From contig NC_088310.1 in NCBI RefSeq assembly GCF_910592395.1, positions 13,215,501 to 13,279,500 of the forward strand: DNA of 64,000 nt, written 5' to 3'. The notes under the pieces were generated by a model, which saw nothing but the letters and a program-made list of their open reading frames with translations, was not told where the DNA came from and did not search any database. Below, one piece after another: positions 5,148-29,908 of the stretch; the stretch's first letter is position 1; every line of letters starts with the position of its first letter. Made by a program: the position numbers and the translations under genes. The stretch comes from Lineus longissimus. Its lineage: Eukaryota > Nemertea > Pilidiophora > Heteronemertea > Lineidae.

Positions 5148-5148
5148 C

Positions 5149-12930: not shown

Positions 12931-13245
12931 CTAGAGCTCAATGGGTTAATGTAATCATGACTTACTGTATTCCAACAGAAAGTACACGTCAATAGCTTTC
13001 CAAGGATACATCATTGCAAATATCCGTTAAAAAATAGCAGAGAAATGCACCCTTGAAGTTCGCACATCTTGACAGTCCCAGCGTATTCCAATAAATGCTG
13101 TAGGCCTACACGACAGCTGTTACAGTGATTAATCATTGTTGCTTGAATCTATTGAAAATATTGTTGACAGAGTCTGCATGTACATGGTAACATATGTTAT
13201 CAAACAATACTCACGTCCCAAAGTATTACAACGGTCTATTGTTCG

Positions 13246-13350
13246 TTAATGCGTTTATCCGACAGAATTTAGAGAAATTATTTTAACGACGCAAAAATAA
13301 TTTTCAGCGCTGAAAATATTTTCGAAAATTCTGTCGGATAAACGCATTAA
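13246..13350. repeat. Left subterminal 25-bp-arm hairpin
   Basis: Arms 13246-13270 and 13326-13350 are perfectly complementary. The 55-nt loop contains a second palindrome, ATTTTCAGCGCTGAAAAT (13299-13316). The region lies between the left terminal repeat and the first gene and could be a cruciform-forming control or replication site; function is inferred only from position. Confidence 0.8.
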
Positions 13351-13378
13351 GACACAATAGGCCTTTTCATGTCTTTGA

Positions 13379-13477
13379 CAAGCAAAAATAATTAATGACT
13401 GCAACATCTGATATGGCCATTGTAATTTGCAAGCACAAATAATTAATGACTGCAACATCTGATATGGCCATTGTACA
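13379..13477. repeat. 51-bp direct repeat, two copies
   Basis: Two nearly identical units start with CAAGCA-AAATAATTAATG at 13379 and 13430 and share ACATCTGATATGGCCATTGT. They sit just upstream of the first plus-strand gene (13639) and may be an upstream control element. Confidence 0.85.
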
Positions 13478-13638
13478 ACTGAATATTACTATGGTTTAAA
13501 GGCAAATGTTATTCTGTCCATGGAGACATGATGTTAACGTCACACTTTCTCCATCTGGTGAGATTATTCCATTAAAATAAATGGCCTTTTTACTGTCTTC
13601 ATTAACCAAAATTCAAGGAAAAAATTCAAGTAAATTAA

Positions 13639-15030
13639 ATGTATTATCCAATAGCAAATCAACATAAAAGTAAATTCACCTATGACTTCTTTAATTTAGA
13701 AGTAACTGTTAATACTAATAACTTCTTCCGCCTACAAGAAACTAAGATAACACCTGGGTTTTTGAGCCTGAAAAATAAGAAAGACTGTCTGCGACTGGAA
13801 AAGAATCCATTATCGTTTTACCAGAACCAATTTAACATGGCTGTTTGGTTTGCTACAACAGGTTGTGGTATTTCAATAGACGATCACTTGAATCACAGTG
13901 ACCCATTGATAAGGTCAATTTACAGGTTTCATGTTTACTATCAAATATTGAAGATCATGGAGAATCTAGAGATACCAATTCCAGGTGAAAGTGATTTTAA
14001 TGAGACAAACAATAACATTAACCGTAGGAAACTAGGAGGGTTATTGAGTGAATTGGGTTTAAAAGACGAATATGATTTCTCGGTGTTTGAAAATAACGGT
14101 GGTTGGAGGTCATGGAGTGTACCGGATTACAACCCGAACATAACTGATCCCAGATATTACATCAATGATTCTAAAATCAATTTCTTCCTCATGCAAGTTC
14201 ATGAAAATAGAATGCCACCGATGTTCAGTAAAGACTGGGATGCTGGAATGGCTAATTTCAAATATCCAGATATTTTCATCAAGGATCATGTCAGGAGACA
14301 CAAGAATGTATTTGATGTAATTACACAAAATGAATGTCAAACCTATCAACAATTCATGATATTTAAATCAAATGGTTTCTCTAATCCTGGAATAGAGAGG
14401 TTGAATGACACAATAAGAACATATGTTTACTGTATTCTGGGTGCTCAGGCGTTGACCAGAACACCAATAATTGGAGTACCGGGTACAGAATTGGATGCAC
14501 AGAAGGAATTTAACAAACTATTAAAGGACTCGATTAATCAACATCCTGATATTCCCACTTCAATTCAAAGATACCAAAAAGCAGTGAGTGACACTCATAC
14601 AAGACTAGATTATGTAATAGCACCAGGATTGTATGTCATAGGATCAAATATGGTACTCGTTATTGGTAAGCTGGATAACTACAATAATAACATTTTAATA
14701 GCACCAAAAAATGCTAAACCCGGTAAGAATGACATTAACCACAAAAAGACCTTACCACCACCACTGATGGAAGGAAATAGTTCTAAGAAAATAAGAGTTA
14801 AGAGTAGTGTTGGTACTGTCAAGACGGACTTCGTCCTGAGAGCAAAGCTCGAGACCAGTCATAAACCAAAGAGTAATGTTGATACACCAAAAACAACTGA
14901 AACCTCAAAGAATACTCCTACTACTATTAAACTTGACACCAAAGTTGAGAAGGTGGATGATACTCATGAAACAATTAAATTCATGCTTTACTCAGCTGTT
15001 GGTACATTGATTGTTTTTATGGTTAGATAA
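13639..15030 (+). CDS. Conserved Polinton protein of unknown function, 463 aa
   Basis: Starts at an ATG within the context TTAAATG. The middle block (FNMAVWFATTGCGIS, then DPLIRSIYRFHVYYQI) and the C-terminal block (RLDYVIAPGLYVIGSNMVL) match a protein I recall as recurrent in animal Polintons, usually next to the capsid or coiled-coil genes. Its biochemical role is unknown to me. A low-complexity Lys/Thr-rich region follows, then one hydrophobic C-terminal segment (FMLYSAVGTLIVFMV), a likely membrane anchor. A double-hairpin repeat at 14826-14850 encodes part of the Lys/Thr-rich linker (TDFVLRAKLE). No frame damage is seen. It is first in a plus-strand run of five genes. Confidence 0.8.
   Translation: MYYPIANQHKSKFTYDFFNLEVTVNTNNFFRLQETKITPGFLSLKNKKDCLRLEKNPLSFYQNQFNMAVWFATTGCGISIDDHLNHSDPLIRSIYRFHVYYQILKIMENLEIPIPGESDFNETNNNINRRKLGGLLSELGLKDEYDFSVFENNGGWRSWSVPDYNPNITDPRYYINDSKINFFLMQVHENRMPPMFSKDWDAGMANFKYPDIFIKDHVRRHKNVFDVITQNECQTYQQFMIFKSNGFSNPGIERLNDTIRTYVYCILGAQALTRTPIIGVPGTELDAQKEFNKLLKDSINQHPDIPTSIQRYQKAVSDTHTRLDYVIAPGLYVIGSNMVLVIGKLDNYNNNILIAPKNAKPGKNDINHKKTLPPPLMEGNSSKKIRVKSSVGTVKTDFVLRAKLETSHKPKSNVDTPKTTETSKNTPTTIKLDTKVEKVDDTHETIKFMLYSAVGTLIVFMVR
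14826..14850 (+). repeat. Double-hairpin element
   Basis: GGAC-TTC-GTCC, linker TGA, GAGC-AAA-GCTC. Lies in frame inside the 463-aa gene. Confidence 0.85.
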
Positions 15031-15040
15031 ATAAGTAATT

Positions 15041-16640
15041 ATGGCTGAAGGAGGTGAAAATTATGAAATGGATGATTACGATTCACAATCATCATCATCA
15101 TCATCAGGAACTGATAAAGACTGGGATAAATGAAGAAAGTTTATCTTTTATCCAGAATTGGCAGGCACAACATACAACACAGGAGGTGAAGATATCCAAA
15201 TGGATGAGATAGATAATTATCGCATTAGTAATTTGAATGATCCTAATACAGTTGAAACCAATAGAACTTTTCAAGATGACGGCACAACATACAACACAGG
15301 AGGTGAAAATCTTACTACTGAAACTTCATTCAGTACACCAGAAAGAGTAAGAGGTATTGTCCCTGAATTGATGGAAAAGGAGTTAAGTTACGATACAATA
15401 GAGGATAAACTTGATACAGCATTGGGAGGATCAAACTGGAATTATGACAAGAAAAAATTGAGTAATCTTGCACCACACATTAGTTACAAAGGTAACAAAC
15501 TTTATTACGATCCGAAAACAAAGTATGAAGTTGATTTGATTAAAGATAAACTAGAAAACAAAAATTTATTTGACTATCCTAATAAGGATGAAACCATTAT
15601 TACCAAGTTAATTCCTTTAACTAAGGATAATGGAAGCTTCTATGCTGAAGGCACATTAAAGACTAAGTTTGGTACTAGATTTGCTGACATGATTAGAGGT
15701 ATGATTGCACCTGACCCACCAGTAAGTCAACCTACATTAGTAACCCCTGAAACACAGGCATTAATTAATGAGGTAAACAGTTCAAACAAACCAATAGATA
15801 AACTGATAGATTCTAATGATGATGAACTTAAAACACTGGGTTTTACTGAATATGCCTTGAGAGAACTTAGAGGGTTAAAACAGGCTGGTGATGATCTAGC
15901 TGCAGTAAAGAGGGATAAGGACATGCAAATAGAGGAATTAGAAAATAAAACTTCGTAATTTAACAAGAGACTATGTAAAGTCTGTAGAAGAAGATACTAA
16001 AGATAAAGTGGAGTTGAAAAAGCAAATAGATGAACTAAATGACAAATTGCATGAGGAACAGTCAAAGGTATGGAGGTTAGACAATGACAGGGAGTCACAA
16101 ACTAGAAGAATTAAACGTTTAATTGTTGATGTTCTAAAGAAACCAGATTCAACTATTCTTCTGAAGGACAGAATAAAGTTACTTTTTAAGACATATGGTG
16201 TAACCATTAGCGCCATAATAACAGCTGTTGTAATGACATTTACAACTCTAGGTCTTAGTATCAGTAGTGCTTTAAGTGGTGCCACTAAATCTGTAAAACC
16301 AACTCCAGGACCAGGACCATCTCCAGGACCAGACCCAACTCCAGGACCTACACCAGAACCAGGACCAAAACCATCAATACCAGATAAAGTAAAAGAAGGT
16401 CTCAATAAGTTTGCTGAATGGCTAAAAGAACTAGCCAAGAAATCAGCTGCGGCTTTACCGGGAATCATCGGTTCTATCGTATCATTTCTCCTGAAAACAA
16501 TTGGTGCAGTTGTTGGCTTTCTAGCTGAACATCTGATCATAGCAGTTATTGCTATTGTTAGTTCCATAATTTATGGTTTAATTGGGGGTGTTAAAGCCTT
16601 AAAATCACGTAAAACAGTAAAATCACGTAAAAGGTCTTAG
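15041..16640 (+). pseudogene. Polinton coiled-coil/membrane protein, broken by stop and frameshift
   Basis: The first ATG (15041, MAEGGENYEMDDYD) opens a frame that meets TGA at 15131-15133 and then stays open to 15958. A +1 slip at the A-run near 15946-15950 moves the frame, which continues to 16640. Read together these parts form one protein of ~530 residues: acidic N-terminus with TTYNTGGE repeats; a conserved block GSFYAEGTLKTKFGTRFAD; a coiled coil spanning the break; a proline-rich stretch with PGPGP and PTPGP repeats; and hydrophobic C-terminal helices (GIIGSIVSFLLKTIGAVVGFL). The overall plan matches a coiled-coil/transmembrane protein I recall from other Polintons. Role unknown; virion-associated is a guess. 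The remaining fragments may still be expressed separately. Confidence 0.75.
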
Positions 16641-16687
16641 GTGACCTTCTATCAAAACAATGTTTAAAAAATAATTATTATGTAAAT

Positions 16688-17827
16688 ATGAATAAATACA
16701 TCTCATTAAAAGACTATTATTCTAGTGAGTGGAACAATGAGAATCTTAAAGGATACATTCGTCCTAGGGTTATGGATCGAGCAGAGCTCTCAGGACGAAG
16801 TCCGACTAGGACAAAGTCCAGAGAGCAAAGCTCGACTCGAGCAGAGCTCTCAGGACGAAGTCTGACTGAGACAGGCAAAGTAGTCCTGCCAAGAATGAAA
16901 GAATATGACGTCAGTACCAACACTAATGCTCAATTCTGCCGTAATTGTAAAAGGTGGACCCTTTTTGAGTATCAAAAAAACTTGAATTCAGCAAGGTACG
17001 CAGCTAAAACTGTGAAGTATCAATTCTGCACCAATTGCAATTCGACTACTTACGATGATGATTTTAAAACTCTTGAGATCAATATTGACAACAAGACACG
17101 TTACTTTGACAGTATTCTAAGGAAACTTGGATGGAGGCGGCTGTCCGAATCGGCAGTTAAGTATTTAAAGGACTTTGTGGAAGGGTATTTACAGTGCTAC
17201 TTTTCAAGTCACAGAAAATGTCTTAGTAAGCAGAGATATGAAAGTACTCTTCAGTCAGCCCTAAAAATGGGTATTAACACTCTCCCCTCTAAGTTATGTA
17301 ACCAAGGGTTACATGGTGAAGCCATGCTTTTTAAATTTCACTGTGGGGAATATGATTGGTTTCTTGCCATTGAATTTATTAACAGGGCAATTGGTAAACC
17401 GCAATTAACCGATGAGAATATCACTGACCTTAGACTAGTGTACTATGCTTTCCTTAGATTTCTGCATTACTGTGGTGTCAAGGTCACCATTAACTACAAG
17501 GTATTTTTACACCAAGCCTTTAAAACGCTGAAAATTGATTATGTAATATTTACACCTTTTTTAACCAACAAGGAGCGAGTAAATAATTTGGAGAGATTAT
17601 GGTATGATTTCACTCAAAGTATTTTCTTCCAGAATTACAAGGTTGAGAAGGAATATGACCAGGATATTGACAAGCAGTTTGACGTTTTATTGGGTGCTAG
17701 TGCAGGTCGAGACATTAACTGCATCAGTAGTATTAAGTTTACACCAGCCGGACTTCGTCCTGAGAGCATAGCTCGAGCCGGACTTCGTCCTGAGAGCATA
17801 GCTCGAGCTAGTGTTAAGATGCAATAA
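16688..17827 (+). CDS. Uncharacterised 379-aa protein with zinc-ribbon motif
   Basis: I do not recognise a family. After ~75 residues, about 30 of them encoded by three double-hairpin repeats in series (16779-16863, residues like AELSGRSPTR), come two CXXC pairs (CRNC and CTNC, about 25 residues apart), a probable zinc ribbon. The rest is a helical, aromatic-rich domain with KLGWRRLSESAVKYLKDF and HGEAMLFKFHCGEYDWFL. The C-terminus again consists of double-hairpin repeats (17750-17804), encoding two 10-residue units of AGLRPESIAR. The core is therefore bracketed by repeat-derived peptide. It is intact and 48 bp after the preceding gene. Confidence 0.65.
   Translation: MNKYISLKDYYSSEWNNENLKGYIRPRVMDRAELSGRSPTRTKSREQSSTRAELSGRSLTETGKVVLPRMKEYDVSTNTNAQFCRNCKRWTLFEYQKNLNSARYAAKTVKYQFCTNCNSTTYDDDFKTLEINIDNKTRYFDSILRKLGWRRLSESAVKYLKDFVEGYLQCYFSSHRKCLSKQRYESTLQSALKMGINTLPSKLCNQGLHGEAMLFKFHCGEYDWFLAIEFINRAIGKPQLTDENITDLRLVYYAFLRFLHYCGVKVTINYKVFLHQAFKTLKIDYVIFTPFLTNKERVNNLERLWYDFTQSIFFQNYKVEKEYDQDIDKQFDVLLGASAGRDINCISSIKFTPAGLRPESIARAGLRPESIARASVKMQ
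16779..16863 (+). repeat. Three double-hairpin elements in series
   Basis: Units at 16779-16803, 16809-16833 and 16839-16863 in alternating orientation, separated by GACTA and GACTC. The 30-nt step keeps the reading frame. The last base of the third unit is changed. Confidence 0.9.
17750..17804 (+). repeat. Two double-hairpin elements, direct
   Basis: Units at 17750-17774 and 17780-17804, identical, 30-nt period, ending the 379-aa gene. Confidence 0.9.
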
Positions 17828-17878
17828 AGTTGTGAAAACAGCATTTTGCACTTAACAGTCATTTTTCCATAATTTTAA

Positions 17879-18700
17879 ATGAATAATCAGCAAATGAATA
17901 GTCAGACATCTGCAGTGATTGAACAACAGATGAAACAGATTGGTGTTATGAGTCCTGAGAGCTTAGTTCGAGTTGGGGCTTCTAACCAACAGAACACTGG
18001 TAGTTACCAACAAAACAGAACTAACTTTCAACAGAACTGCTCTACAAATCAACAAGTTTCAAACAAGCAGTTGAATAGTTCAAATTTTGTTACTCCCAGT
18101 CAGGGAATAGTTAATCCCAGTCAAGGAATAGTCAATTCTAGTTGCCAACTAGGATCAACCAGCAATCAACAAAATTTGAACTATTTGACTGATAGTGGTC
18201 TTAAAGCCAAACAAGACTTAGAGATTCTAGTTGCAACTGGCAAAAGCAAGGATTTCCTTAATAAACAAATAACTTTTAATGACTTAGATAATATGACTGA
18301 AAAAGAAATCTTAAAACACCATAGAATGTATGAAACAAAGATGGCTGCCAGACTTAATGATTCTTTGGGTAAGACAGTAATTAAAGCTTACACTAAATTA
18401 TCAAGGTGGTTATTACCAATAGATGATGAAGATGATCTTTATCATGATCTTAGAAATGATTATTTGATAACTAACGAGTTGGATAAATGGCTTGGATGGT
18501 TGAGTTTGAGAATGGGTCCATTAACTGCACTTGCTTCAACAACACTTATTACTTTAGGTCATTGTCATGAGGAATCATCTATGAATACATCGAGTATGAC
18601 TGCATCAAATATGAATACACCAAATATGACTGTCTCTGAATGTGACAAACCAATAGATGAAAGTCTAGATATCACAGGTAGTGATGATAAAGAAGACTAA
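17879..18700 (+). CDS. Conserved Polinton protein with Gln/Asn-rich N-terminus, 273 aa
   Basis: Starts at TTAAATG. The first ~105 residues are rich in Gln, Asn and Ser (for example NNQQMNSQT and TPSQGIVNPSQGIVN), prion-like in composition. The remainder holds a conserved block (NDLDNMTEKEILKHHRMYETKMAARLNDSLGKTVI and LSRWLLPI, positions ~140-190) and GPLTALASTTLITLGHC near the C-terminus. This arrangement matches a protein I recall in other Polintons; function unknown. A half double-hairpin (17952-17969) encodes MSPESLVRVG. The acidic, Met/Thr-rich tail is poorly conserved in character. Intact. Confidence 0.7.
   Translation: MNNQQMNSQTSAVIEQQMKQIGVMSPESLVRVGASNQQNTGSYQQNRTNFQQNCSTNQQVSNKQLNSSNFVTPSQGIVNPSQGIVNSSCQLGSTSNQQNLNYLTDSGLKAKQDLEILVATGKSKDFLNKQITFNDLDNMTEKEILKHHRMYETKMAARLNDSLGKTVIKAYTKLSRWLLPIDDEDDLYHDLRNDYLITNELDKWLGWLSLRMGPLTALASTTLITLGHCHEESSMNTSSMTASNMNTPNMTVSECDKPIDESLDITGSDDKED
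17952..17969 (+). repeat. Partial double-hairpin element
   Basis: GTCC, TGA, then GAGC-TTA-GTTC, the second stem using one G-T pair. Inside the 273-aa gene. Confidence 0.6.
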
Positions 18701-18716
18701 ATTAACCTGGTTATGA

Positions 18717-18727
18717 GAACATAGTTC
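18717..18727 (+). repeat. Half double-hairpin element
   Basis: GAAC-ATA-GTTC preceded by TGA, in the 48-bp gap before the next gene. Confidence 0.6.
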
Positions 18728-18748
18728 GAATTAATTTGAGCAAGATAA

Positions 18749-19285
18749 ATGGAACTTGAAACTGTAACTGATACTACTCGAGCTATGCTCTCAGGACAAA
18801 GTCCGACTAGGACTACGTCCAGAGAACAAAGTTCGACTAAAGTTTCAGTGTCTAAGAAACCTCGATCAGAGAAACAATTAGCATGGTCTAGAGAACTGGG
18901 TAGAAGATCTAAGGAATTTAAGAGGATAAAAAACGATAAGACGACATTTAAAGTACAGGACTCCTCACCAAAAAACAGAGTTGTGGAAAAGGAGGAAGAA
19001 GAAGTAGAGGAAGAAGAACCACAATCTCAAAATACTGATGTATCACTGCGTGAATCTAGTAGTAATACTTATGTCTATGTACTAGGTTTAGGTGCCGTTA
19101 TTTTAGCAGCATTCATTATGTTTAAGAAACTTCCTAAAAAAGTAAGTAAAGAGCAGCGATCAGGCTTGAATCGAACTTTGTTCTCTGGACAAAGTCCGAA
19201 TGAAGCAGTCATGAAGGGATCAATTAACCCTCTTGTTAAACCTGTAGTTAAAGAGAAGAAATGTACTATTCCTTTAATGGAATGA
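18749..19285 (+). CDS. Small Polinton membrane protein, 178 aa
   Basis: Starts at TAAATG. A basic segment (SEKQLAWSRELGRRSKEFKRIK) resembles one seen in small Polinton membrane proteins; then an acidic run (KEEEEVEEEEP), one transmembrane helix (YVYVLGLGAVILAAFIMF) and a basic tail. The N-terminus (RAMLSGQSPTRTTSREQS) is encoded by two double-hairpin elements and the tail contains another. The 3' end overlaps by 20 bp the convergent gene ending at 19266. Function unknown; a membrane or virion role is inferred only from the helix. Confidence 0.65.
   Translation: MELETVTDTTRAMLSGQSPTRTTSREQSSTKVSVSKKPRSEKQLAWSRELGRRSKEFKRIKNDKTTFKVQDSSPKNRVVEKEEEEVEEEEPQSQNTDVSLRESSSNTYVYVLGLGAVILAAFIMFKKLPKKVSKEQRSGLNRTLFSGQSPNEAVMKGSINPLVKPVVKEKKCTIPLME
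18780..18834 (+). repeat. Two double-hairpin elements, inverted pair
   Basis: 18780-18804 and 18810-18834, separated by GACTA. The second unit has GAAC-AAA-GTTC in place of GAGC-n3-GCTC, a compensated stem change. Confidence 0.9.
19173..19197 (+). repeat. Double-hairpin element
   Basis: GAAC-TTT-GTTC, TCT, GGAC-AAA-GTCC, in frame near the end of the 178-aa gene. Confidence 0.85.
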
Positions 19286-20279
19286 TCTCATCAGGTGGTC
19301 GAGCTTTGCTCTCAGGACGAAGTCCGTCTAGGACAAAGGCCAGAGAGCAAAGCTCGATTCTTAACTCTAAAGAAACCTCTGTTCCTCTGAAATTAACTAG
19401 CTTACCATTCTCATCAGTGATTTCGAATTTTATGTGATTAGTACACTTATTTATCGTTTTCTTACAATTCGGTTCGTATCGCTGCATTTTTATTTGGTCA
19501 CCATCTTCTACAGGTATGATGCAGAAAATGTTAGATGGTTTATTGTTGTAGAGGGTCTTAGCTTTGTCAACCAAATTAGCTTGCAGGAATAGATATTTCC
19601 TGTAAAAGTTGAGTGGTCTTGTGGAGTAGTATTTTCCTTTCTTGGTGAATTTAGTTTGCTTAAAGCCAAACCACTCATTCACCACTGTGAGCTGTTTTTC
19701 TATCACCTCTCTTATGGTTTTGCTTATTTGAAAACCTTCTGTGTTTCTCTCAATCTTGATTTTTTCATTTTTATCTAACTTGTCTACTTTCAGAGGGTAC
19801 TCTTTATCCTCTGTAAATTCAAGGGTTATGTAATTATTGTTATCACACTAAATTTTCACATGGCTAATTCCAATTTCTTTTATGTATTTTTGCCATACCT
19901 CACAAAACTCACTTAAACTAAAATGTCGAGAGTATGGAAATGTGTATTGAGTAATGGTGTCTTTAGTTGTGGTAGATTCATTTTCCAAATGCCGTTCGCA
20001 AATTTTCATGACTTCCTTTTCAAGTGTATCTGTTTCAAGTCCAGGAGCAAATAATGTCCTACACCATAATTGTTTATCTAAGTGCTCATGTGTTGTAATT
20101 CTGGTTATTTCGACTAGAAATGAGAAAATCCTGACTCCCTCTGGTAGAAAATCACCTGTCCACCATGAATTGTAAAAGGTTATCGATTTCAAAGTAATGG
20201 ATTTTATGTCTAATTGGTCTGTTAAGTAGTACTCAAATTTGGCTTCATTACATTCTTGTTCATTGATTATGAAGTCCAT
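19266..20279 (-). pseudogene. Second single-jelly-roll-like Polinton protein, in-frame TAG
   Basis: One minus-strand frame of 338 codons from ATG 20279 to 19266 is interrupted only by a TAG at 19848-19850. The N-terminal part (FEYYLTDQLDIKSITLKSITFYNSWW) reads as beta-strand-rich. The C-terminal part has a distinctive run: conserved FGFKQTKF, LNFYRKYLFLQANL, FCIIPVEDGDQ, then IKFEITDENGKLVNFRG. The last block resembles the end of the penton-like protein at 28779-29546. I therefore take it for a second single-jelly-roll structural protein, perhaps a vertex or fibre component; that role is inference. The last ~25 residues come from two double-hairpin elements. The TAG may be inactivating, read through, or an assembly error. 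Confidence 0.6.
19301..19355. repeat. Two double-hairpin elements at a convergent gene end
   Basis: Units 19301-19325 and 19331-19355, separated by GTCTA; one stem base is changed in the second. They encode the C-terminus of the minus-strand gene and lie just past the stop of the plus-strand gene. Confidence 0.9.
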
Positions 20280-21045
20280 TTCTATTTAATTCAAGAGATT
20301 TATTGAATTTAATAAATTTTAATCTAATAAATAGAATGACTGATAAGAATCAGAAAATACTTTGCACTACATGTGACAAGTACATATCCTACAATAATAT
20401 GGCTATTCACAGGAGAACCAAAGGTCACTTAAGTAAATTAAATCCGGATTATGTCCCTATTGCTCAACCCCGAGCCTCATCACTGATCCCTAAAACTATG
20501 GATAAGAAACTTGCATTTGAGGAAAATGAGCTAGATGGCATAAAGAAAGTGAGTGGAATAGAAATAGTAAAACAATTTGGAAAGCCTGTAATCACCATTA
20601 GTTTGAAGATTGACAGAGAAGCTAAACAGGTGTATGAATACAGAGATAAATTAGAGGAGGTATTATTTCAACTCAATGATTACCATCACAAAATTAGCAT
20701 ATCAGTATTTGCTCAGTTTGATCGTCAGGGTGAAAGTGTAACACACCCCATACAGTCTCCAATGGAAAGCATAATTTCAAGGAACCAGGCAATTTATGCC
20801 ATAACCAACCAGTTAAACTACATTAAGACACAGATTGAGGAAAGGTACTTTCAAGGTTCTGGACTTACTTTAAATAAAATAGAGTCTTGTAACATGACCA
20901 TCTGTTCTTACAAGAGGTGTAAAGGTGGTCATTACACTAAATTACCATTTAAAACAAAAGCAGTAATAAATGTGGAATCAAATGACAATAAATGTTTTCT
21001 CTGGTCTTTATTGGCCGCTAAATATCTGAAAGAAAATCCAGAGAC

Positions 21046-21132
21046 GGACTTTGTCCTGAGAGCAGAGCTGGAGAGTACATTAAATATTACTACCGATGTG
21101 CTAGAAATGACTTCGTCACGAGAACAGAGTTC
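21046..21132 (+). repeat. Two separate double-hairpin elements in POLB
   Basis: 21046-21070 (GGAC-TTT-GTCC, TGA, GAGC-AGA-GCTG with one decayed base) and 21108-21132 (TGAC-TTC-GTCA, CGA, GAAC-AGA-GTTC). In the second, both stems are changed relative to consensus and both remain paired. Confidence 0.9.
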
Positions 21133-21615
21133 GAAAACTACTGATATCAAAATCAAATCATTTCCTGTATGTATTCAAAAGGATATTCCTAAGATAGAGA
21201 GTGATAATAATCTCAAGATTAATGTGTTCAAGTTAGAGAACGAATGGGCTAAGAGCACCTGTGAGGCAAAACTAGAACCTCTCTACCTGTCCAAGAATTA
21301 TGATGATGATGATGTCATTGATCTGTTGTATTTCAAGGACCATTTCATGTACATAAGAGACATCAATCTTTTCTTCAGGACACTAGCTCATAGAGTGTAT
21401 CTTTGCAGGAGATGCATGAATTACTTTTACAGGAAGTCAACACTAGATAAGCATAAAAAGAAATGTGGAGAACACGATTACTGTAAGATTACTTTGCCTC
21501 CACCTAACAGTAAATGGTCACAAATTAAATTTGAAAAACACTCATTCAAAAATAGAGTTCCGTTTGTGATCTATGCTGATTTCGAAGCGATAAGCACAAC
21601 AGTCAATGATAACTC

Positions 21616-21629
21616 GAGCTCTGCTCTCA
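21616..21629 (+). repeat. Half double-hairpin element in POLB
   Basis: GAGC-TCT-GCTC followed by TCA; the second hairpin is absent. Confidence 0.65.
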
Positions 21630-22802
21630 CAACTCAGACAGATACCACTGTTACCACTAAAAAACTTTTTAAACAAAATGCATCAGCTGTTGGTGTTTAT
21701 GTTCACTCAGACTACACACACCTTTACAATAGCCAGTATGTGTCTCACAGGGGTGCTGATGTTGTAGATGTGTTCTGTAATTGGTTAATCAGGATGGAAG
21801 AACAATTCTCTAATTTATTGAACTGTAACTTTCCTCTAACAATGACAGATGAAGACTGGCATAAATATCAATTAGAAACACATTATTACTATTGTAATCA
21901 ACCTTTGGGATATGACAAGGTCAAGGATCATGATCACTACTGTGGTAGATATCGAGGTGCTGCTCACAACTCGTGTAATTTGAATGAAAAGAAAGCTATG
22001 TTTGTTCCAGTGTTTTTTCACAATCTCAGTAATTACGATTCTCACTTATTTATTAAAGAATTAATGAATAAGCTACCGAAGTACAAGAAACTGAAAATAC
22101 TTGCCATCAGAGGAATACATCTCATTTCAGTTCGGTTGTTTCAGGTTTTTGGACTCGTACAGATTCCTGCAGTCCAGTTTAGACAACATAACCAAATCAA
22201 TGTTGGATGATGATTTTAAAATTACCAGACAGCTGTTCCCAAATACCACTGACTTTAAGCTATTGAGGAAGAAGGGTTCAGTACCTTACTCTTTTTACAC
22301 ATCACATGAAAGCTACAATGTTACTTACCTAGAAAAGTCTATGTTTTTTGACGAATTGAAAAATGAAATGGCACCTGATTCTGCCTATGATGAGGCTAAG
22401 GTAATATGGGATCATTTCAAGATCAGGAATCACGGTGAGTTCATTGACCTCTACCTCAAAACTGATGTGATCCTTTTAGCTGATTTATTTGAGAAATTCA
22501 GGGATGTCAATTTGAACTACTTTCAGATAGATCCATGTCACTGTTACTCGGCACCAGGCCTAACCTGGCAAGCTGGTTTGAAGTACACAGGAATAAACCT
22601 AGAACTACTGACTGATACCAACATCTTACTTACTTTTGAGAAAGCAATACGAGGTGGAATTTCGGGTGTTATGGGAACAAGACATGTCAAGGCAGATGAA
22701 CACCACAAACTACTCTACGTAGACGCAAATAATCTCTACGGCTGGTCCATGATGGAACCTCAACCCTATGGTAGTTTTGAAATGATAGATATTGATCCAC
22801 TC

Positions 22803-22827
22803 GAGCTATGCTCTCAGGACAAAGTCC
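22803..22827 (+). repeat. Double-hairpin element in POLB
   Basis: GAGC-TAT-GCTC, TCA, GGAC-AAA-GTCC, encoding ELCSQDKVR soon after polymerase motif A. Confidence 0.9.
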
Positions 22828-24053
22828 GACTTAACATGAATGTTATCAGTAAAGAGCAGATTATGGCAATTCCAAGTGATAGTGAAGTAGGCTACTTCTT
22901 AGAGGTGGATTTGGAGTATCCAGGAAATATTAAATTTAAGTCAAGGAACTTTCCATTCTGTCCCGAATCTCTCTTTATTGAAGATGATGAATTAAGTCCT
23001 TACCAGAGAGAGTTACTGGGCGATGATAAAAGATCAAATGTAGAGAAACTAATACTAACACAAAAGGATAAAACTAATTACATAGTGCATTACAGAATGC
23101 TACAATTTTACCTCAAGCACGGAATGGTACTTAAGAGGGTTCATTCAGTGATAAGCTTTAAACAATCAAAGTGGTTAGCACCATACATTGATTTTAACAC
23201 TAAAAGACGTATGGATTCTAAGACTGATTTTGAGAAAGACTATTTTAAGCTCATGAATAATGCGTTCTACGGAAAGACTTGTGAGAATGTAAGGAACAGG
23301 GTTGAAATTGAATTTGTATCGGACGGGGAGAGAGCCAGGAATGTAATGGCCAATCCCAGGTTTTCATCGATATGCGTATTTGACGAACATAATGCTGCTA
23401 TTAGCATGAGGAAAACATCAATGAAATTCAACAAACCAATCTACATAGGAGCTTCAGTACTTGAATTGTCTAAATTATTAATGTATGAATTCTATTATGA
23501 AGTTCTTCAACCGCACTTTGGTGAGAAAAATATTGAACTACTGTATCTAGATACAGATTCCTTTGTACTTAACATTAATACTGATGACTTAACTAAAGAC
23601 TTAAAGGAGTTGAAACACTATTTTGACTTCAGTAATTATCCAAAAGATCATACACTCTATGACACCAGTAAGAAGAAGGTACCAGGCTACTTTAAGGATG
23701 AGCTAGGAGGAGTAGAGATGACTGAATTCATTGCCCTGAGAAGTAAGATGTACGCTTACAGAACAAAAGATTACGATTCTAAGAAATTGAAGGGTATTGC
23801 CAAGAATGTAGTAAGGAGAAATATCTCATTTGATGACTATGTTGATTGTCTTGAAAAGAGTAGGTCATTTTACCACAATATGAGACACTTAAGATCAGAT
23901 AAACACCAAATCTATTTGGAAGAAGTTGACAAAAAAAGCCTCAGTCCTTTTGATGACAAGAGGTTCATACTTGAAGATGGAATAAGCACCTTACCATTTG
24001 GAATGTATTATGAAGGCTACATAGATTACAGCGATTCAAACTTCGCTTGAGTC

Positions 24054-24376
24054 GAGCTTTGCTCTCTGGACCTTGTCCTAGTCGGACTTCGTCTTGAGAG
24101 CATAGCTCGAGTTGCAAAAATCATTATTCGGACTTTGTCCTAGTCGAGCTTTGACCTGAGAGCAGAGCTCGATTAAACTAATGAATAGGGTGGTGCTGAT
24201 GGTAGTGCTACTTGGTGAAATTCATCCCTAACACCAAAGTAATGATAATAGTGATAGTGATACACCACATTAGGATTAGGACTATTTAGTCGGACTTCGT
24301 CCTCGGGACCTTGTCCTAGTCCGACTTCGTCTTGAGAGCATAGCTCGAGTCGAACTTTGTTCTCTGGACGTAGTCC
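24054..24376. repeat. Cluster of double-hairpin elements between convergent genes
   Basis: Fills the gap between the POLB stop (24050) and the end of the convergent minus-strand gene (24391). Clear units: 24054-24078, 24084-24108, 24292-24316 (two GGAC-type hairpins), 24322-24346, 24352-24376. A scrambled set lies at 24130-24170. The position could serve transcription termination or 3' end formation for both genes, though this is inference. Confidence 0.9.
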
Positions 24377-24390
24377 GGGTCCTGTTTGAT

Positions 24391-25050
24391 TTACTGAACT
24401 TTTAGTTTTTCTAGCATCTCTGTCTGTGCTAGTTTTTTTCCTTCTTCTAAAAAAGTCTTCTTTAAAGACTCTACATCAACAGCTGAACTTGCCTCCCTTT
24501 GTTTTTTCCTAATGGCATTTTTCATCGAAATGTATTTCTCCTTCTCCTTGAGAATCAAAGTAAACTCATCTGTAGATATGTGAGAATCGGTTTAGGCTTT
24601 ACTAACCAAATCATTGATTGTGTTCAGTTTTGAAATTGCCAACATTCTGATATTCTCATGTTTTTCAATTTTCCTTAGAATATTCTTTTTCTCCCAGCCT
24701 AAGGCTGATGAAATAATGGCACTACCTATTGTTACGCCACCCAAAGCTAAGCCTATCGGTGCCGTGATGACACCAGCTAGAGCGGAAACACCAACAGAGC
24801 CGGCTGCTACGCTAGTTAAATTAAGGAAATGGCTAATGCCAGTAATTACGCTAAATGCTTTTTTGTACTTTGAAAATATCTTTCTTCTAAATTCAATCTC
24901 GCTTTCTAAGAAACTCTTAACCTCACATATTTGTTGTAGTCTGAAAGCCTGAGGGTTACTTTCTGTATGCTTTTCAGACCTTTCATAGTTCAATTGACTT
25001 TCAGAGTTTAAATTACTTAAATCTGGATAAACCTTATTGTCTCCATCCAT
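24391..25050 (-). pseudogene. Polinton hydrophobic/coiled-coil protein with early in-frame TAA
   Basis: Starts at ATTAAATG (25050). The first 152 residues contain a charged helical N-terminal half, a long Gly/Ala/Val-rich hydrophobic stretch (GVSALAGVITAPIGLALGGV) and the block ILRKIEKHENIRMLAISKLNTINDLVSKA. There TAA occurs, but the same frame stays open for about 65 more codons (HIS-DEF-LIL-, then charged coiled coil) to a stop at 24391. The downstream part matches the continuation I expect from related Polinton proteins, so the TAA appears to be a recent nonsense change. Function unknown; membrane-interacting by composition. Confidence 0.7.
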
Positions 25051-25054
25051 TTAA

Positions 25055-25297
25055 TTAGTGGGAATAACTAGAATCAGTTGTTCTAGTGTTTAGTGTTGAT
25101 CCTACAGACACTACAGGTTTTTGAAGTACATTAAATTTTAAAGGTTTTTCTGTCCCAGCAGGCACAGCAGGTTTTAAAGGTTTTTCGGGACCAGACTCCA
25201 ACTTTGACTCTACTTCTGCCTCTAATTCTCTATGAAATCGTTCTAATCTTTCTTTCCAATTACGTGGTCGTTTTGTGTAACCCCAAGTTCTATTCAT
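25055..25297 (-). CDS. Small basic protein, 80 aa
   Basis: Starts at ATTAAATG, 4 bp upstream of the next minus-strand gene. The N-terminal part is Arg/Glu-rich and helical (RNWKERLERFHRELEAEVESKL); the middle has an imperfect duplication (GPEKPLKPAVPAGTEKPLKF). No family is recognised. The tight spacing and start context like its neighbours support a real gene. Confidence 0.5.
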   Translation of the reverse strand: MNRTWGYTKRPRNWKERLERFHRELEAEVESKLESGPEKPLKPAVPAGTEKPLKFNVLQKPVVSVGSTLNTRTTDSSYSH

Positions 25298-25316
25298 TTA
25301 ATTAAGTAAAATAAAA

Positions 25317-26429
25317 TCAATTCACTGCAAAGAGTAAATTTCTTTCAAGTCTATTATTCAACTTAATCATCTCGTTTATGATTTCTGTCTGACTACATAT
25401 GTTAATGTTCTGGTTCATTCTCATGTTATTATTTAAATTCGATAATCTATCAAGCAAAATCATATTTTCATCACGAAGATAATCCCCGAAATGCTGTGAT
25501 ATCACTATTTTCCAATCTGGTATTACATCCTGGTCTCGAAAGACAAACCAGTTTTCACTTCTTATCTTTACCATGAAATCCATTGACCTATCCAATTGAT
25601 CCTTAAATAGTGTGTAGTCTACTTTAGCACTCTTCTGTCTGTTTTCTGTCTTTTCCATTGGTCTAATGTTAAACCAAGCAAAGCACAGTTCAGGTTTATC
25701 TTTGAATTCCTTGATTGGTAAGACATGATCCAACTCTTCTTCTACTATTCGAACTCTGTTCTCGGGACTTTGTCCTATTGGAGATAGACTCCTCTGGTAC
25801 TCTAACCACTGTGAGAAGAAACTGTCTGTACATCCTAGATTGAATGATGAATTACCGGTACACTCTCCCTTAGAAATGCGGTTTAGACCAACTCTAATTT
25901 TGTGTCTGTCTCTATTACCATTTTGGTCAAGGTAATCCTTTTTGTAATATGAATTAAAACATGATCTGCAGTTACCTCTATTTCCGTCTTTACCAAATTC
26001 ACCATCACTTAGTAATTTATTTTCATAACATTTATTACATCCCTTGATTTTACTTGAACCACATTCTTTACAGTAATCAAGTAGTTTATTACGCCTGTTC
26101 TTTTCAAAATTAATTTCAGGTTTCTTTTCACAGCACTTAACACAATAAATTGTAGGTTGATTTTCCATGTTTTGATTCATCATATTATTCTGATTTTCCA
26201 TATTTTGATTTTCCATGTTTTGATTTAAGATAAACTGATTTATCATATTTTGATTTAACATAATCTGATTTATCATATTTTGATTTAACATATTATTTTG
26301 ATGCAAATAATACAAAAACTTCTGAATATTCTGATTCATCATATTATCATAATTCATCATATTATTCTGATTCATCATACCATTTTGATTCATCATACCA
26401 TTTTGATTATCAAATATTGCTCCATCCAT
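25317..26429 (-). CDS. HNH-type nuclease with Met/Asn/Gln-repeat N-terminus, 370 aa
   Basis: Residues ~8-90 are repeats built on MMNQN, NMINQ and NMENQ, extremely rich in Met, Asn and Gln. A cysteine-rich zone follows (CVKC, CKEC, CNKC, CRSC pairs, about residues 95-160), likely zinc-binding. Then comes ELDHVLPIKEF and, after ~10 residues, AWFNIRPMEKTENRQKSAK. This is the layout of HNH endonuclease cores (D-H pair, then N, then a second basic/Asn element) as found in large DNA viruses. The activity is predicted, not shown. One double-hairpin element (25751-25775) lies just before the HNH core. The N-terminus is prion-like in composition. Intact frame. Confidence 0.75.
   Translation of the reverse strand: MDGAIFDNQNGMMNQNGMMNQNNMMNYDNMMNQNIQKFLYYLHQNNMLNQNMINQIMLNQNMINQFILNQNMENQNMENQNNMMNQNMENQPTIYCVKCCEKKPEINFEKNRRNKLLDYCKECGSSKIKGCNKCYENKLLSDGEFGKDGNRGNCRSCFNSYYKKDYLDQNGNRDRHKIRVGLNRISKGECTGNSSFNLGCTDSFFSQWLEYQRSLSPIGQSPENRVRIVEEELDHVLPIKEFKDKPELCFAWFNIRPMEKTENRQKSAKVDYTLFKDQLDRSMDFMVKIRSENWFVFRDQDVIPDWKIVISQHFGDYLRDENMILLDRLSNLNNNMRMNQNINICSQTEIINEMIKLNNRLERNLLFAVN
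25751..25775. repeat. Double-hairpin element in the HNH gene
   Basis: GAAC-TCT-GTTC, TCG, GGAC-TTT-GTCC; in frame. Confidence 0.85.
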
Positions 26430-26475
26430 TTCTTTCTTTATTTAGTAGGACATTTTTTTTTTAATTACGTTTTTC

Positions 26476-26500
26476 GAACTTGTTCTTGTGACTTAAGTCA
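26476..26500. repeat. Double-hairpin element, intergenic variant
   Basis: GAAC-TT-GTTC, TTG, TGAC-TTAA-GTCA: loops are 2 and 4 nt, but the total is still 25 nt and both stems pair. Lies between the integrase stop and the HNH gene start. Confidence 0.7.
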
Positions 26501-26516
26501 CTTTAGAGACTTTATT

Positions 26517-27638
26517 TCATTTCAATGATTTGATATCAGAAACTGGTAACCATTCATTGAACTTATCACTGTAACCCTTCCACTTCACTAATCCGTATTT
26601 CTTGCCTTTACTGGTCTTGTACCTTAGGATTTTCTCGATCTTGTACTCTAGCTGGTCAGGATTAGGAACATAGCTCAATTCCTCTTCATAGAAATATCCT
26701 TGAATTTCTTCTTTGTGGTAATCCTCAAGCTGGTAGACGATAGGGTGAGTAAAGATGATCTGTTTCATTTGGAACACCTCCTCAGTGTAGTTGGGCATGT
26801 AACCTTTACCGAAAATGGACTTGTACTTTGAAATTCTTACACTGTCACCTACTTTGTACTTTGGATCACCAAATGTCTCTTTGAGGTGAAGACGGTAAAG
26901 ATTGTACCACACTGTTCCTTCGTTTTCCATCTTTCTGGCGTCTACAGGTTTCATACCTATTGATGAGTGAAATGTGTTATTGTAGCCGCTGACCAGGTCA
27001 TCCAGAACGTCAATCCACTTGTCAGTCTCCTTAGCGGTGAAATAACGCCACATTTTTTCTTTAAGGGTTCTATTGAATCTCTCTACTACTGCTGCCTTCT
27101 TATCAGATTTTGTGGAGAACCATTCTATGTCATTTTCTGTTAAGAGTTCCTTGAAGTGTTTGTTGTAAAATTCTTTACCGTCATCAAACTGGATTTTCGT
27201 TGGTTTTGCTTCCTCAAATATCACTTTAAATGCATCTCTGATTTCTTCTCCCCTCTTACTCTTAACTGCTAGAGCCCAAGAAAAACGACTAAATAGATCT
27301 ATGACTGTTAAAATGAATCTGTTGCCTTTATTCTTACTCTCGAATTTCTGCATGTCAACCAGATCTGCTTGCCATTGTTGATCGATGTACGATACCATTG
27401 TCTTCCTGAAGGTGAATTTCTTAATGGCCGGTTTGTGTAGTTGGTGAGTTGGTAGTGTTTCTAGAAATTCTTTCACTTCTTTTTGTTTAATAAGTTTTCC
27501 TGAGCTCTGCTCTCGTGACGAAGTCATATCTTCCTTGACCTGTTTCCAGATTTTACTCAAAGAACTGTAAGCCACGGGACTCTCGGGGTTGTAGTACAAA
27601 TCCCTTAGATACTGCTGTGTGTCATCCTTTACATTCAT
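26517..27638 (-). CDS. INT: Polinton retroviral-type integrase with chromodomain, 373 aa
   Basis: Catalyses joining of the element ends to host DNA. The DDE core shows WQADLVDMQKF (first Asp, ~residue 90), KIQFDDGKEFYN (second Asp, ~150) and KKAAVVERFNRTLKEKMW (Glu, ~185). The usual second-Asp motif has Thr-Asp-Lys-Gly; here it reads FDDG, which keeps the Asp. An SH3-like segment follows (KVGDSVRISK). The C-terminal chromodomain (YKIEKILRYKTSKGKKYGLVKWKGY...NEWLP) is typical of Polinton integrases and may read chromatin marks. A double-hairpin element encodes MTSSREQSS near residue 40. The start lies 4 bp from the divergent ATPase start within the palindrome CATTTAAATG. Confidence 0.95.
   Translation of the reverse strand: MNVKDDTQQYLRDLYYNPESPVAYSSLSKIWKQVKEDMTSSREQSSGKLIKQKEVKEFLETLPTHQLHKPAIKKFTFRKTMVSYIDQQWQADLVDMQKFESKNKGNRFILTVIDLFSRFSWALAVKSKRGEEIRDAFKVIFEEAKPTKIQFDDGKEFYNKHFKELLTENDIEWFSTKSDKKAAVVERFNRTLKEKMWRYFTAKETDKWIDVLDDLVSGYNNTFHSSIGMKPVDARKMENEGTVWYNLYRLHLKETFGDPKYKVGDSVRISKYKSIFGKGYMPNYTEEVFQMKQIIFTHPIVYQLEDYHKEEIQGYFYEEELSYVPNPDQLEYKIEKILRYKTSKGKKYGLVKWKGYSDKFNEWLPVSDIKSLK
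27502..27526. repeat. Double-hairpin element in INT
   Basis: GAGC-TCT-GCTC, TCG, TGAC-GAA-GTCA. The second stem is the covarying TGAC/GTCA form. Confidence 0.9.
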
Positions 27639-27642
27639 TTAA

Positions 27643-28263
27643 ATGAGTGAAGTATTTATTTACGAGCCACACAATATGTTAATTTCTGGTGTTACCAATT
27701 GTGGTAAGACATATTTTGCCCTTGACCTCTTAGAAAAGGAGTATCGGCACAAGTTCCAGAACATAGTAATTTTCTGTCCAACATATTTCAACAATAAGAC
27801 ATATGAAAGGAAATGGATTTACCAAGACAAGAACGTCTACATAGTTAATCCCGAAGCTGTGGCCAGTAATTTGGACCTTGTGCTTCAGTTTGCTACTCTG
27901 ACCTTTGCTGGTTCTAACACATTATTCCTCATTGATGACTGTGCTAATTTGAGAGACACAAAAAAGAAGGTGTCCGAGTTATGTAATCTTGCCTTTTCCG
28001 GCAGGCACTACAATCTCACTGTTTGGTTACTAGTTCAGAAGTACAATTCAGTTGTTAAGGACTACAGAGAGAACATAAGAATTTTAGTATTATTTTTTAA
28101 TAAGGATGAATCAGCCATGAAAGATGCCTTAGAAGAAAACAGTGTTATTCCTAAGGAGAAAAGACAGTACTACATAGAAGAACTTAAGATGAAAAAAGGA
28201 TCAAAACTGATCATTAGACTACAACATCCATTTGGATTTACTCTTTCCCATCAAAAATCTTAG
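27643..28263 (+). CDS. ATP: Genome-packaging ATPase (FtsK/A32-like), 206 aa
   Basis: Walker A is ISGVTNCGKTYFA (residues ~14-26) and Walker B is NTLFLIDDCA (~92-101). LAFSGRHYNLTVWLLVQKY follows, the sensor-like region of A32-type packaging ATPases in Polintons, virophages and large DNA viruses. The length is normal for Polintons. It would pump element DNA into capsids. The start TTAAATG shares a 10-bp palindrome with the divergent integrase start, so promoter sequences must lie within the neighbouring coding regions. No damage and no double-hairpin inside; a degenerate hairpin group follows its stop. Confidence 0.94.
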   Translation: MSEVFIYEPHNMLISGVTNCGKTYFALDLLEKEYRHKFQNIVIFCPTYFNNKTYERKWIYQDKNVYIVNPEAVASNLDLVLQFATLTFAGSNTLFLIDDCANLRDTKKKVSELCNLAFSGRHYNLTVWLLVQKYNSVVKDYRENIRILVLFFNKDESAMKDALEENSVIPKEKRQYYIEELKMKKGSKLIIRLQHPFGFTLSHQKS

Positions 28264-28272
28264 TCCCGCTTC

Positions 28273-28318
28273 TGATCATCAGTACTGTGTCCGATCATCA
28301 GGACTGTGTCCGATCAGT
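28273..28318. repeat. Degenerate hairpin repeat at convergent gene end
   Basis: Two copies of GATCATCA followed by a GnAC-TGT-GTCC hairpin (one is a perfect GGAC-TGT-GTCC at 28301-28311), spaced 21 nt apart. Lies between the ATPase stop and the stop of the convergent 152-aa gene, and overlaps the latter's last codons. Confidence 0.6.
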
Positions 28319-28756
28319 GGTCTTAGTCTTTCTAACCCTAGTAAAATAATAAATTATTAACCCTAAACCACTAAGTCCTAGGATAATCCATAGGTACTCG
28401 TATTTCTTCATTTCATCACTAGGTTGGTAATAATCACTTAATTGTGGTCGCTGAGGTAGTACAATAGTTCTTTCTGGATGTAAATGATTGTAAACAGTAA
28501 GTGCTGAATCAGTATTGTTAAAATCAATAGAAGCGTCTCTTTCTCTCTTTAATTCAAGGTTAACGAAGTCAATGGTACTTTTCCTATGCTCATCCCATTC
28601 TGTGGATGCTCTTTGCAATTGCTCTTGAGCTAAATTATGTCTCTTAATTTCAGTCTCATAGCCATTCTTGTCTAGTTTTTTAAAAAGGTAACCGGATCCA
28701 GTGAATGCTAATCCATTGATTATTGCAGATCCAAATAACATACCAATGCCAGCCAT
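28298..28756 (-). CDS. Conserved Polinton protein with C-terminal membrane helix, 152 aa
   Basis: Starts at ATTAAATG. A Gly/Ala-rich N-terminus (GMLFGSAIINGLAFTGSGYLF) is followed by a helical stretch ending in the conserved-looking KRHNLAQEQLQRASTEWDE...DFVNLELKRE, then QLSDYYQPSDEMKKYEY and a transmembrane helix (LWIILGLSGLGLIIYYF). I recall very similar proteins beside the capsid genes of many Polintons. Function unknown; position between ATPase and capsid genes suggests a virion or membrane role. Confidence 0.8.
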   Translation of the reverse strand: MAGIGMLFGSAIINGLAFTGSGYLFKKLDKNGYETEIKRHNLAQEQLQRASTEWDEHRKSTIDFVNLELKRERDASIDFNNTDSALTVYNHLHPERTIVLPQRPQLSDYYQPSDEMKKYEYLWIILGLSGLGLIIYYFTRVRKTKTTDRTQS

Positions 28757-28778
28757 TTAATTTCAACGAATTTTAATT

Positions 28779-29546: not shown

Positions 29547-29603
29547 TTACTTAAGCAAATTTTCGTTTTCAAATTTATCTTTTATCAAATAAGTAAATTA
29601 TTC

Positions 29604-29840: not shown

Positions 29841-29897
29841 TTAATTACTTAGAAAATCACTAGTAAAACTCATTTATCTAGTATTCAGTGTTGGAGT

Positions 29898-29908
29898 GAA
29901 CTTTGTTC
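29898..29908. repeat. Half double-hairpin element
   Basis: GAAC-TTT-GTTC, just past the MCP stop codon. Confidence 0.55.

Follow-up and report, generated by a model that had tools for sequence, protein, structure and literature searches.

Double-hairpin units in a Polinton of Lineus longissimus

The 64,000-nucleotide stretch of Lineus longissimus DNA analyzed here (contig NC_088310.1, positions 13,215,501 to 13,279,500; referred to below as the window) contains a Polinton with intact ends, which carries a family of short double-hairpin units. The Polinton termini read AGAATATATG, and a 6-bp CCGGCC repeat is present on either flank. The element and its integrase are located as follows:

12739..31629, no strand assigned: Polinton with intact ends; 171-bp terminal inverted repeats at 12739-12909 and 31459-31629, 99.4% identity
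26517..27638, minus strand: Polinton integrase (rve and chromo domains, Pfam), host of one unit

Each unit is composed of a D hairpin (GGACn3GTCC) and an E hairpin (GAGCn3GCTC), and its orientation is given in the D-to-E direction. The consensus over 22 units in this orientation is GGACTTCGTCCTGAGAGCAnAGCTCG, and the element is modeled as 27 bp, M GGAC n3 GTCC nGA GAGC n3 GCTC G, in which M is C or A. A position matrix made from 15 units was scanned over the window, and 22 full units, from 14826 to 27502, were matched at 21.5 bits or more. A unit at 26476 whose loops measure 2 and 4 nt, its total length being unchanged at 26 nt, brings the number of full units to 23; it was left out of the 22-unit alignment, the covariation count and the 22-unit and 7-unit flank tests described below. 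Eight further matches scored at least 8 bits. Four of these are decayed or diverged units (17945, 18703, 21616 and 28783; 16.4-20.1 bits), which were left out of every flank statistic, and the other four lie outside the Polinton (45851, 16.4 bits; 7832, 14.6 bits; two below 10 bits). The best match in the reversed window, which served as a control, reached 13.1 bits.

Exact double hairpins of the form 4-3-4/3/4-3-4 occur 18 times in the window, 17 of them inside the Polinton, compared with a mean of 0.58 and a maximum of 3 in 50 first-order Markov randomized Polintons. Exact half-units (either hairpin alone) number 35 within 12739-31629 (18.9 kb); in the remaining 45 kb of the window none was found to the left and one (54596) to the right, and the 50 randomized Polintons contained a mean of 0.1 and a maximum of 1. 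A chance origin of the units was rejected on the basis of the randomized Polintons and the reversed-window scan. Rfam returned no family match at the gathering threshold, ARAGORN predicted no tRNA, and the exact unit patterns gave 0 matches in viral and prokaryote contigs.

Both stems are fully Watson-Crick in 16 of the 22 units, and the GC content of the 23 units (0.530) exceeds that of the Polinton (0.357). Eight of the 23 units are isolated, 14 form six pairs or triples at 30-nt spacing (five of which include an inverted pair), and 24146 belongs to a compound at 24129-24171. The full units (with flanking bases, left/right) are listed first, followed by the decayed and diverged ones:

14825..14851, plus strand: isolated unit in ORF463 (ORF, open reading frame); flanks AGA/AGA, fourth base likewise C/C
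16778..16864, mixed strands: three-unit array (- + -), in frame, close to the N-terminus of ORF379 (RAELSGRSPTRTKSREQSSTRAELSGRS)
17749..17805, plus strand: tandem pair of period 30 at the C-terminus of ORF379 (AGLRPESIARAGLRPESIARA); flanks AGC/AGC/AGC
18779..18835, mixed strands: inverted pair (- +) in ORF178; flanks ACTA/ACTA for the plus unit and AGT/AGT for the minus unit
19172..19198, minus strand: isolated unit within ORF178 that folds into a single long hairpin; oriented flanks ATT/ATT
19300..19356, mixed strands: inverted pair (- +) towards the end of ORF193, with unmatched flanks
21045..21071, plus strand: isolated unit, N-terminal frame of PolB, peptide TDFVLRAELE; flanks AGA/AGA; PolB relatives without it
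21107..21133, plus strand: isolated unit, N-terminal frame of PolB, peptide MTSSREQSS; flanks GAA/AAA (2/3); PolB relatives without it
22802..22828, minus strand: isolated unit, C-terminal frame of PolB, peptide ELCSQDKVRL; flanks AGT/AGT; inside a 15-residue gap relative to protein P0124
24053..24109, mixed strands: intergenic inverted pair (- +), where the PolB and ORF152 genes converge
24129..24171, plus strand: compound of a D hairpin (24130) and the hybrid unit 24146; flanks of 24146 AGT/ATT
24291..24377, mixed strands: intergenic three-unit array (- + -), the first unit with two D hairpins
25750..25776, minus strand: isolated unit in ORF370 (GQSPENRVRI); flanks AAT/AAT, fourth base likewise A/A
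26475..26501, minus strand: isolated intergenic unit of 26 nt, loops of 2 and 4 nt; flanks AAA/AAA
27501..27527, minus strand: isolated unit, integrase, peptide MTSSREQSS; flanks GAT/GGA, unmatched; net 9 residues relative to protein P0001
17945..17969, plus strand: decayed unit in ORF273, E hairpin remaining; matrix match
18703..18727, plus strand: diverged intergenic unit with stems TAAC/GTTA and GAAC/GTTC
21616..21640, minus strand: decayed unit in the PolB N-terminal frame, E hairpin remaining; matrix match
28783..28807, plus strand: decayed unit, E hairpin remaining, in the last codons of a minor-capsid-like ORF

A preliminary description of this DNA had counted about 22 full units plus several halves and had called them richer in GC than their host element, and both points hold. 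The 4-3-4/3/4-3-4 architecture that it gave, in either orientation, also stands, whereas its unit length of 25 nt is better replaced by an insert of 27 + 3 bp and an array period of 30 nt. Its remark that no units occur elsewhere in the window is correct as regards the density of half-units (35 versus 1) but has to be qualified for the half-unit at 54596, one exact double hairpin and the weak matrix matches outside the Polinton.

Direct repeats flanking the units

The 4 nt to the left of each of the 22 units were compared with the sequence found downstream at a given lag. At a lag of 30, 67 of the 88 flank positions agree, versus 6-35 of 88 at the other 15 lags within 24-39. Positions -3 and -2 match in 17 and 18 of the 22 units, respectively (column-shuffle p <0.001), position -4 is an A to the left and right of almost every unit, and position -1, which is C or A on the left, matches weakly (12/22, p 0.14). 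Exact 3-bp flank repeats are present in 15 of the 22 units. In a 4-bp permutation corrected for the choice of offset, 0 of 1000 values were as high, a figure that includes array members, which share flanks and are not independent.

Because of this sharing, the isolated units provide a fair test. With seven of them, the best 4-bp offset gave 23 matches of 28 (offset-corrected permutation p 0.002). With eight (26476 added), and with the offsets fixed beforehand by the 22-unit and 7-unit test, the NN positions match in 7/8, ANN in 6/8 and all four bases in 3/8 units, compared with null values of 1.75, 1.12 and 0.5 (exact permutation p 0.0006, 0.0002 and 0.006, respectively). The best model of the insert is a 27-bp element plus a 3-bp duplication, mostly ANN, with a net length of 30 bp (10 codons); partitions of 28+2 or 26+4 may apply instead, the net gain being 30 in each. 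Unit 27502, with flanks GAT/GGA and a gain of 9 residues relative to P0001, falls outside the 27 + 3 model.

Stem covariation, loops and folding

Covariation was tested in the 18 distinct rows of the 22-unit alignment, over eight stem pairs (144 cells), using 500 shuffles. Pairing is retained in 95.8% of the stem cells, three of the eight pairs show two-sided changes (8 cells), and G-U occurs in 1 of the 144 cells. The covariation score of 0.190 was reached by 0/500 shuffles, although relatedness alone can beat the shuffles; slid structures scored 0.009-0.084. The number of further pair types was not raised (495 of 500 shuffles as high). GAGC/GCTC is replaced by GAAC/GTTC in four distinct rows (five units) and GGAC/GTCC by TGAC/GTCA in two, and in 24292 a D hairpin takes the place of the E hairpin. 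The stem covariation is real, yet it comes from few events. Units 21108 and 27502 are alike up to the last base except in the E stem pair, which suggests that this change arose, or was passed between units, repeatedly.

Read from D to E, the 22 units have the D loops TTC (10), TTT (5), TAC (2), AAA (3) and AAG (2); 19 of them have an E loop of the form AnA. Loops in reverse-complement form are found in 5/22 D hairpins (AAA, AAG) and 2/22 E hairpins (TCT), and 24146 and 24292 contain mixed hairpins. The single G-U cell is little for an RNA under selection; together with the flipped loops and the hairpin swapping it agrees with the copying of DNA hairpins no less well than with selection on RNA. 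The GAAC/GTTC and TGAC/GTCA stem variants given in the preliminary description were all recovered at their positions; its freely varying loops are contradicted by the five D-loop types and the AnA loop. It had further concluded from the covarying stems that selection or copying acts on a folded RNA or single strand: the covariation was confirmed, but RNA selection is not established, given the few events, the one G-U cell and the flipped loops.

DNA folding of five stretches was compared with shuffles. Three were more stable than the shuffles: 19172-19198 (one longer hairpin, -5.7, z -3.2), 18776-18839 (an inverted pair, -14, z -4.2) and the triple at 24285-24380 (z -3.9). No advantage over the shuffles was seen for the single unit 14825-14851 (-4.1 kcal/mol, z -0.99) or for the tandem pair 17746-17809 (z -1.05). 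When the left end of each of the 23 units was compared with its inverted right end, 3-10 of 12 positions matched (median 6; best in 19173), suggesting that both hairpins may have diverged from a single one.

Units within genes and in related proteins

Sixteen of the 22 units lie within ORFs, in both orientations. Their phases relative to the gene are + 0 (4 units), + 1 (4), + 2 (2), - 0 (2) and - 1 (4), the sixth combination being represented by the decayed unit 21616 only. Since both orientations and five orientation/phase combinations occur, no one peptide is selected. The linker is TGA in none of the four units placed in the phase that would make TGA a stop, versus nine of the 12 other coding units (Fisher p 0.019). 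This avoidance indicates that the units are probably translated, modest as the evidence is, since two of the four stop-phase units share the TGAC/CGA subfamily. Translational bypassing is not needed, as the coding units are stop-free in frame.

Genes with a recognized domain or relatives (PolB, the integrase and ORF370) host five of the 16 coding units. PolB, named from its relatives and not from Pfam, extends over two overlapping frames (20303-22210 and 22101-24050), which were read and searched separately; because of this split, the polymerase of this Polinton copy may be broken. Eight relatives were aligned with the N-terminal frame, and all seven that span the stretch are without counterparts of TDFVLRAEL and MTSSREQSS. 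In the 640-column, 61%-identical alignment of the C-terminal frame with P0124, the largest gap (15 residues) is at unit 22803. The integrase match P0001 (93-94% identity) is shorter by 9 residues at 27502; in 27 integrase relatives this linker has no extra residues in 16 and extras in 11, of other sequence except perhaps in P0015. The absence of units from PolB and integrase relatives covers four units. The ATPase and major capsid ORFs contain no unit. Units in variable places would be the pattern expected from survival after random insertion.

P0001 is encoded on a 1226-bp contig labelled Bartonella, a label that is probably due to contamination. P0001 and the proteins P0121 and P0123 (Candidatus Omnitrophica and Sulfurimonas labels) are Polinton-type proteins and probably represent eukaryotic DNA in prokaryote records.

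P0015, a Polinton-type integrase from L. longissimus and the best named animal match of the integrase (77%), contains GHRPDGHSPESIAM near the same linker and FELCDKVRL in its C-terminal tail, both of which resemble unit-encoded peptides. Of 3000 shuffles, 24 and 15, respectively, scored as high as these stretches, which were picked after being seen, and among eight control linkers P0016 comes close (34/3000). In a blind scan of 167 proteins for unit-encoded peptides the best score was 32, versus 32 in the reversed-sequence null, and P0015 was not singled out, so that the unit-like peptides in P0015 are only suggestive. If the likeness is true, the unit family would be older than this Polinton copy.

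A search with a unit-encoded peptide region gave five candidates and no match at E 10. No relative was confirmed in viral contigs with the integrase, the integrase alignment or the capsid, nor in prokaryote contigs with the integrase alignment, and the PolB alignment detected in viral contigs one distant locus (L001, 29% identity), which is without units.

Origin of the units

The family is real and unusual, and the most plausible view is that a very small mobile hairpin entered one Polinton many times. We put at roughly 0.68 the probability that the units derive from a mobile DNA element of very small size, copies of which were inserted at staggered sites in the Polinton. The preliminary description had likened them to the mobile double hairpins of mitochondria, a likeness that is upheld: the lag-30 flank repeats and the relatives without the extra residues both speak for mobility.

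Several observations weigh against this interpretation. (i) Seven of the 22 units are without an exact 3-bp repeat: the flanks match at 2/3 positions in 21108, 24146 and 24352 and at 1/3 in 16779, 19301, 19331 and 27502. The repeat may be 2, 3 or 4 bp long, as its first A is near-constant on both sides and carries little information, and the flank evidence comes from one Polinton copy only, without a DNA-level empty/filled orthologous pair. (ii) The units are not enriched in ORFs (16/22, versus a coding fraction of 0.919 for 13639-31175), and ORF463, ORF379, ORF178 and ORF193, which have no known relative, contain 11 of the 16 coding units; the coding status of these 11 follows from the open frame alone. 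(iii) The gap in the PolB C-terminal frame is 15 residues long and not the expected 10. P0001, labelled partial, starts exactly at the insert site; the empty state therefore rests on one residue, which makes the comparison weak, and since other linker extras are present in 11 of the 27 integrase relatives, a change of length at this place is not unit-specific. (iv) To our knowledge, the element ends are those of no transposase family, 27 bp leaves very little room for a transposition complex with two ends, and the mobiliser proposed below is a speculative candidate only.

Of the other explanations, the one that survives best, although we consider it unlikely, is that the units are a non-mobile by-product of replication, in which template switching and gene conversion spread short palindromes within the Polinton with no dedicated insertion machinery. 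The flipped loops, the mixed hairpins (24146, 24292) and the compensatory stems are marks of template switching, and the near-confinement to one element in the window agrees with it; however, the constant 30-nt lag and the 2-4 bp flank repeats at unrelated sites look like staggered insertion, and template switching would be expected to yield varied lengths.

It is rather improbable that the units serve the Polinton as cis-signals (for transcript ends, RNA processing or packaging), kept by selection on folded RNA or DNA and scattered by repeated recruitment. Their covarying stem pairs, the crowding of six units between the convergent PolB and ORF152 genes, the units at gene ends (17750, 19301, 28783) and the stability of the sole inverted pair folded (z -4.2) could be explained in this way. 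Such signals do not predict the lag-30 flank repeats, nor do they sit well with the location of most units within ORFs, in several cases close to an N-terminus or in a linker in mid-gene; the Rfam search at the gathering threshold and the compared PolB and integrase relatives, which are without the units, also stand against them.

A repeat dispersed throughout the host genome and present in this Polinton by accident appears unlikely too. The other host DNA surveyed amounts to 45 kb only and there are possible family peptides in an L. longissimus protein (P0015), but that 45 kb holds 1 exact half-unit versus 35 in the 18.9 kb of the Polinton, and P0015 is itself a Polinton-type integrase. Finally, a low-complexity protein repeat that is palindromic in DNA by accident, as the ten-residue periodic peptides in ORF379 and ORF178 might suggest, can be practically dismissed: the five orientation/phase combinations encode different peptides and 7/23 units lie outside ORFs, which refutes a repeated peptide-coding sequence.

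Proposed mechanism of insertion

For the mobile-element interpretation the following sequence of events is proposed. An element of about 27 bp would be copied into the Polinton at staggered target sites, generating a 3-bp direct repeat, mostly ANN, and with the net gain of 30 bp the genic copies would be read through as ten tolerated residues. The copied form may be a hairpin strand; snap-back copying between the stem arms could then yield paired stem changes and flipped loops, and arrays could arise by insertion beside older copies. More speculatively, the target might be opened by a staggered cutter encoded either by the Polinton, for which one candidate was noted, or by the host:

25317..26429, minus strand: ORF370, speculative candidate mobiliser; C-terminal part similar to endonuclease VII (phrog_1035, E 4.4e-7)

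T4 endonuclease VII cuts cruciforms and branched DNA. For ORF370, Pfam gave only an unrelated weak match, a PDB sequence search with the C-terminal part gave none at E 10, and the predicted structure of this part was unusable (mean pLDDT 38.5). Host enzymes are equally possible as the mobiliser. The Polinton integrase is disfavored in this role: since the Polinton is flanked by a 6-bp repeat (CCGGCC), its integrase, acting in the usual way, is a less likely mobiliser.

We tentatively suggest, as a possibility that goes well beyond the insertion model itself, that the units are a frame-compatible 27-bp micro-transposon specialized on the Polinton. It would be a parasite of a virus-like transposon, spreading as DNA hairpins via staggered cuts, perhaps made by the Polinton's endonuclease VII-like enzyme, and would be among the smallest mobile elements proposed for the eukaryotic nucleus.

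Other features of the Polinton and its surroundings

The Polinton also encodes an A32-type ATPase (Pfam), and the integrase, ATPase and PolB set is followed by ORFs placed like the minor and major capsid genes. The major capsid ORF has a weak Pfam Capsid_N match (E 0.012, under the curated cut-off); the other ORF is presumably the minor capsid gene, judging by its position. At 28265-28330 there is a short tandem repeat of about 19 nt (GATCATCAGGACTGTGTCC) with a D-like palindrome, which is not a unit of the family.

The ORFs flanking the Polinton are, as we take it from their motifs, of gypsy type. Identical (100%) direct repeats of 1232 bp, at 41102-42333 and 48000-49231, enclose long gypsy-type ORFs (42583-47798) and indicate a recently inserted long terminal repeat element. 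Outside the Polinton ends there are inverted repeats (12071-12231/32867-33027 and 11099-11249/33018-33165) that partly match 4908-5763; they are copies of a further dispersed repeat and bracket the insertion. The interval 59253-61142 contains a sequence of about 445-450 bp in three direct copies, located at 59253, 59700 and 60695 and 92-100% alike.

Comparison with known short mobile elements

The literature matches listed, judged by title and start of abstract and covering few subscription journals, included no report of such elements in Polintons. Among known elements, the GC clusters of yeast mitochondria (e.g. GC42) are described as short GC-rich palindromes in AT-rich DNA with loops more variable than stems; AG or ACT repeats flank them, and merging reshuffles them. 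The clusters are mostly intergenic, and the four most abundant are 32-42 nt long (PMC4478555). A short palindrome with a 2-3 bp direct repeat is common to these clusters and to the Polinton units (6/8 isolated units, 15/22 units in all). In contrast to the mitochondrial, mostly intergenic clusters, the Polinton units are 27 bp long and mostly in ORFs, and by eye the sequences in Table 1 of that source look different.

The double-hairpin elements of Allomyces and the repetitive hairpin-forming elements of sponge mitochondria consist of neighboring short hairpins that are dispersed; copies in the sponge Vaceletia differ by few complementary substitutions, the fungal elements stay in transcripts and are not removed, and those of Allomyces are reportedly without flanking duplications (PMC2800124). 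Two adjacent short hairpins in many dispersed copies are likewise found in the Polinton; however, the Allomyces elements are mitochondrial and reportedly lack a flanking duplication, whereas the Polinton lies amid gypsy-type ORFs and its units have lag-30 repeats.

Bacterial repetitive extragenic palindromic (REP) elements mobilized by REP-associated tyrosine transposases (RAYTs) are palindromes of 20-40 bp; they form dimers and arrays, some within genes (PMC3733652). The REP/RAYT system combines a GTAG end tag with an HUH tyrosine transposase; no tag of the GTAG type was seen by eye in the 23 Polinton units, and a Pfam scan of 18 ORFs, confined to the Polinton, named no HUH transposase at E 0.1. 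Like miniature inverted-repeat transposable elements, the units are short and have direct target repeats (ANN/ANN in 6/8 isolated units), and a weak inverted-repeat symmetry between the hairpins may be a further likeness; unlike such elements, the units are 27 bp long without an interior, and the symmetry of their ends is 3-10/12 (median 6).

Rickettsia palindromic elements, which are bacterial and about 100-150 bp long, are inserted in frame inside ORFs. They are the nearest in-frame parallel, insertion in frame into ORFs being seen for the Polinton units too. The window itself looks eukaryotic.

Mobile hairpins of a few dozen bp are thus already known in mitochondria and bacteria, and the Polinton family, with its fixed net length, short target repeat and eleven in-frame coding sites, would represent a virus-linked and probably nuclear case, whose mechanism could be read from empty and filled sites. 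The family would also illustrate the tolerance of a virus-like element to repeated insertions in DNA that is almost entirely coding.

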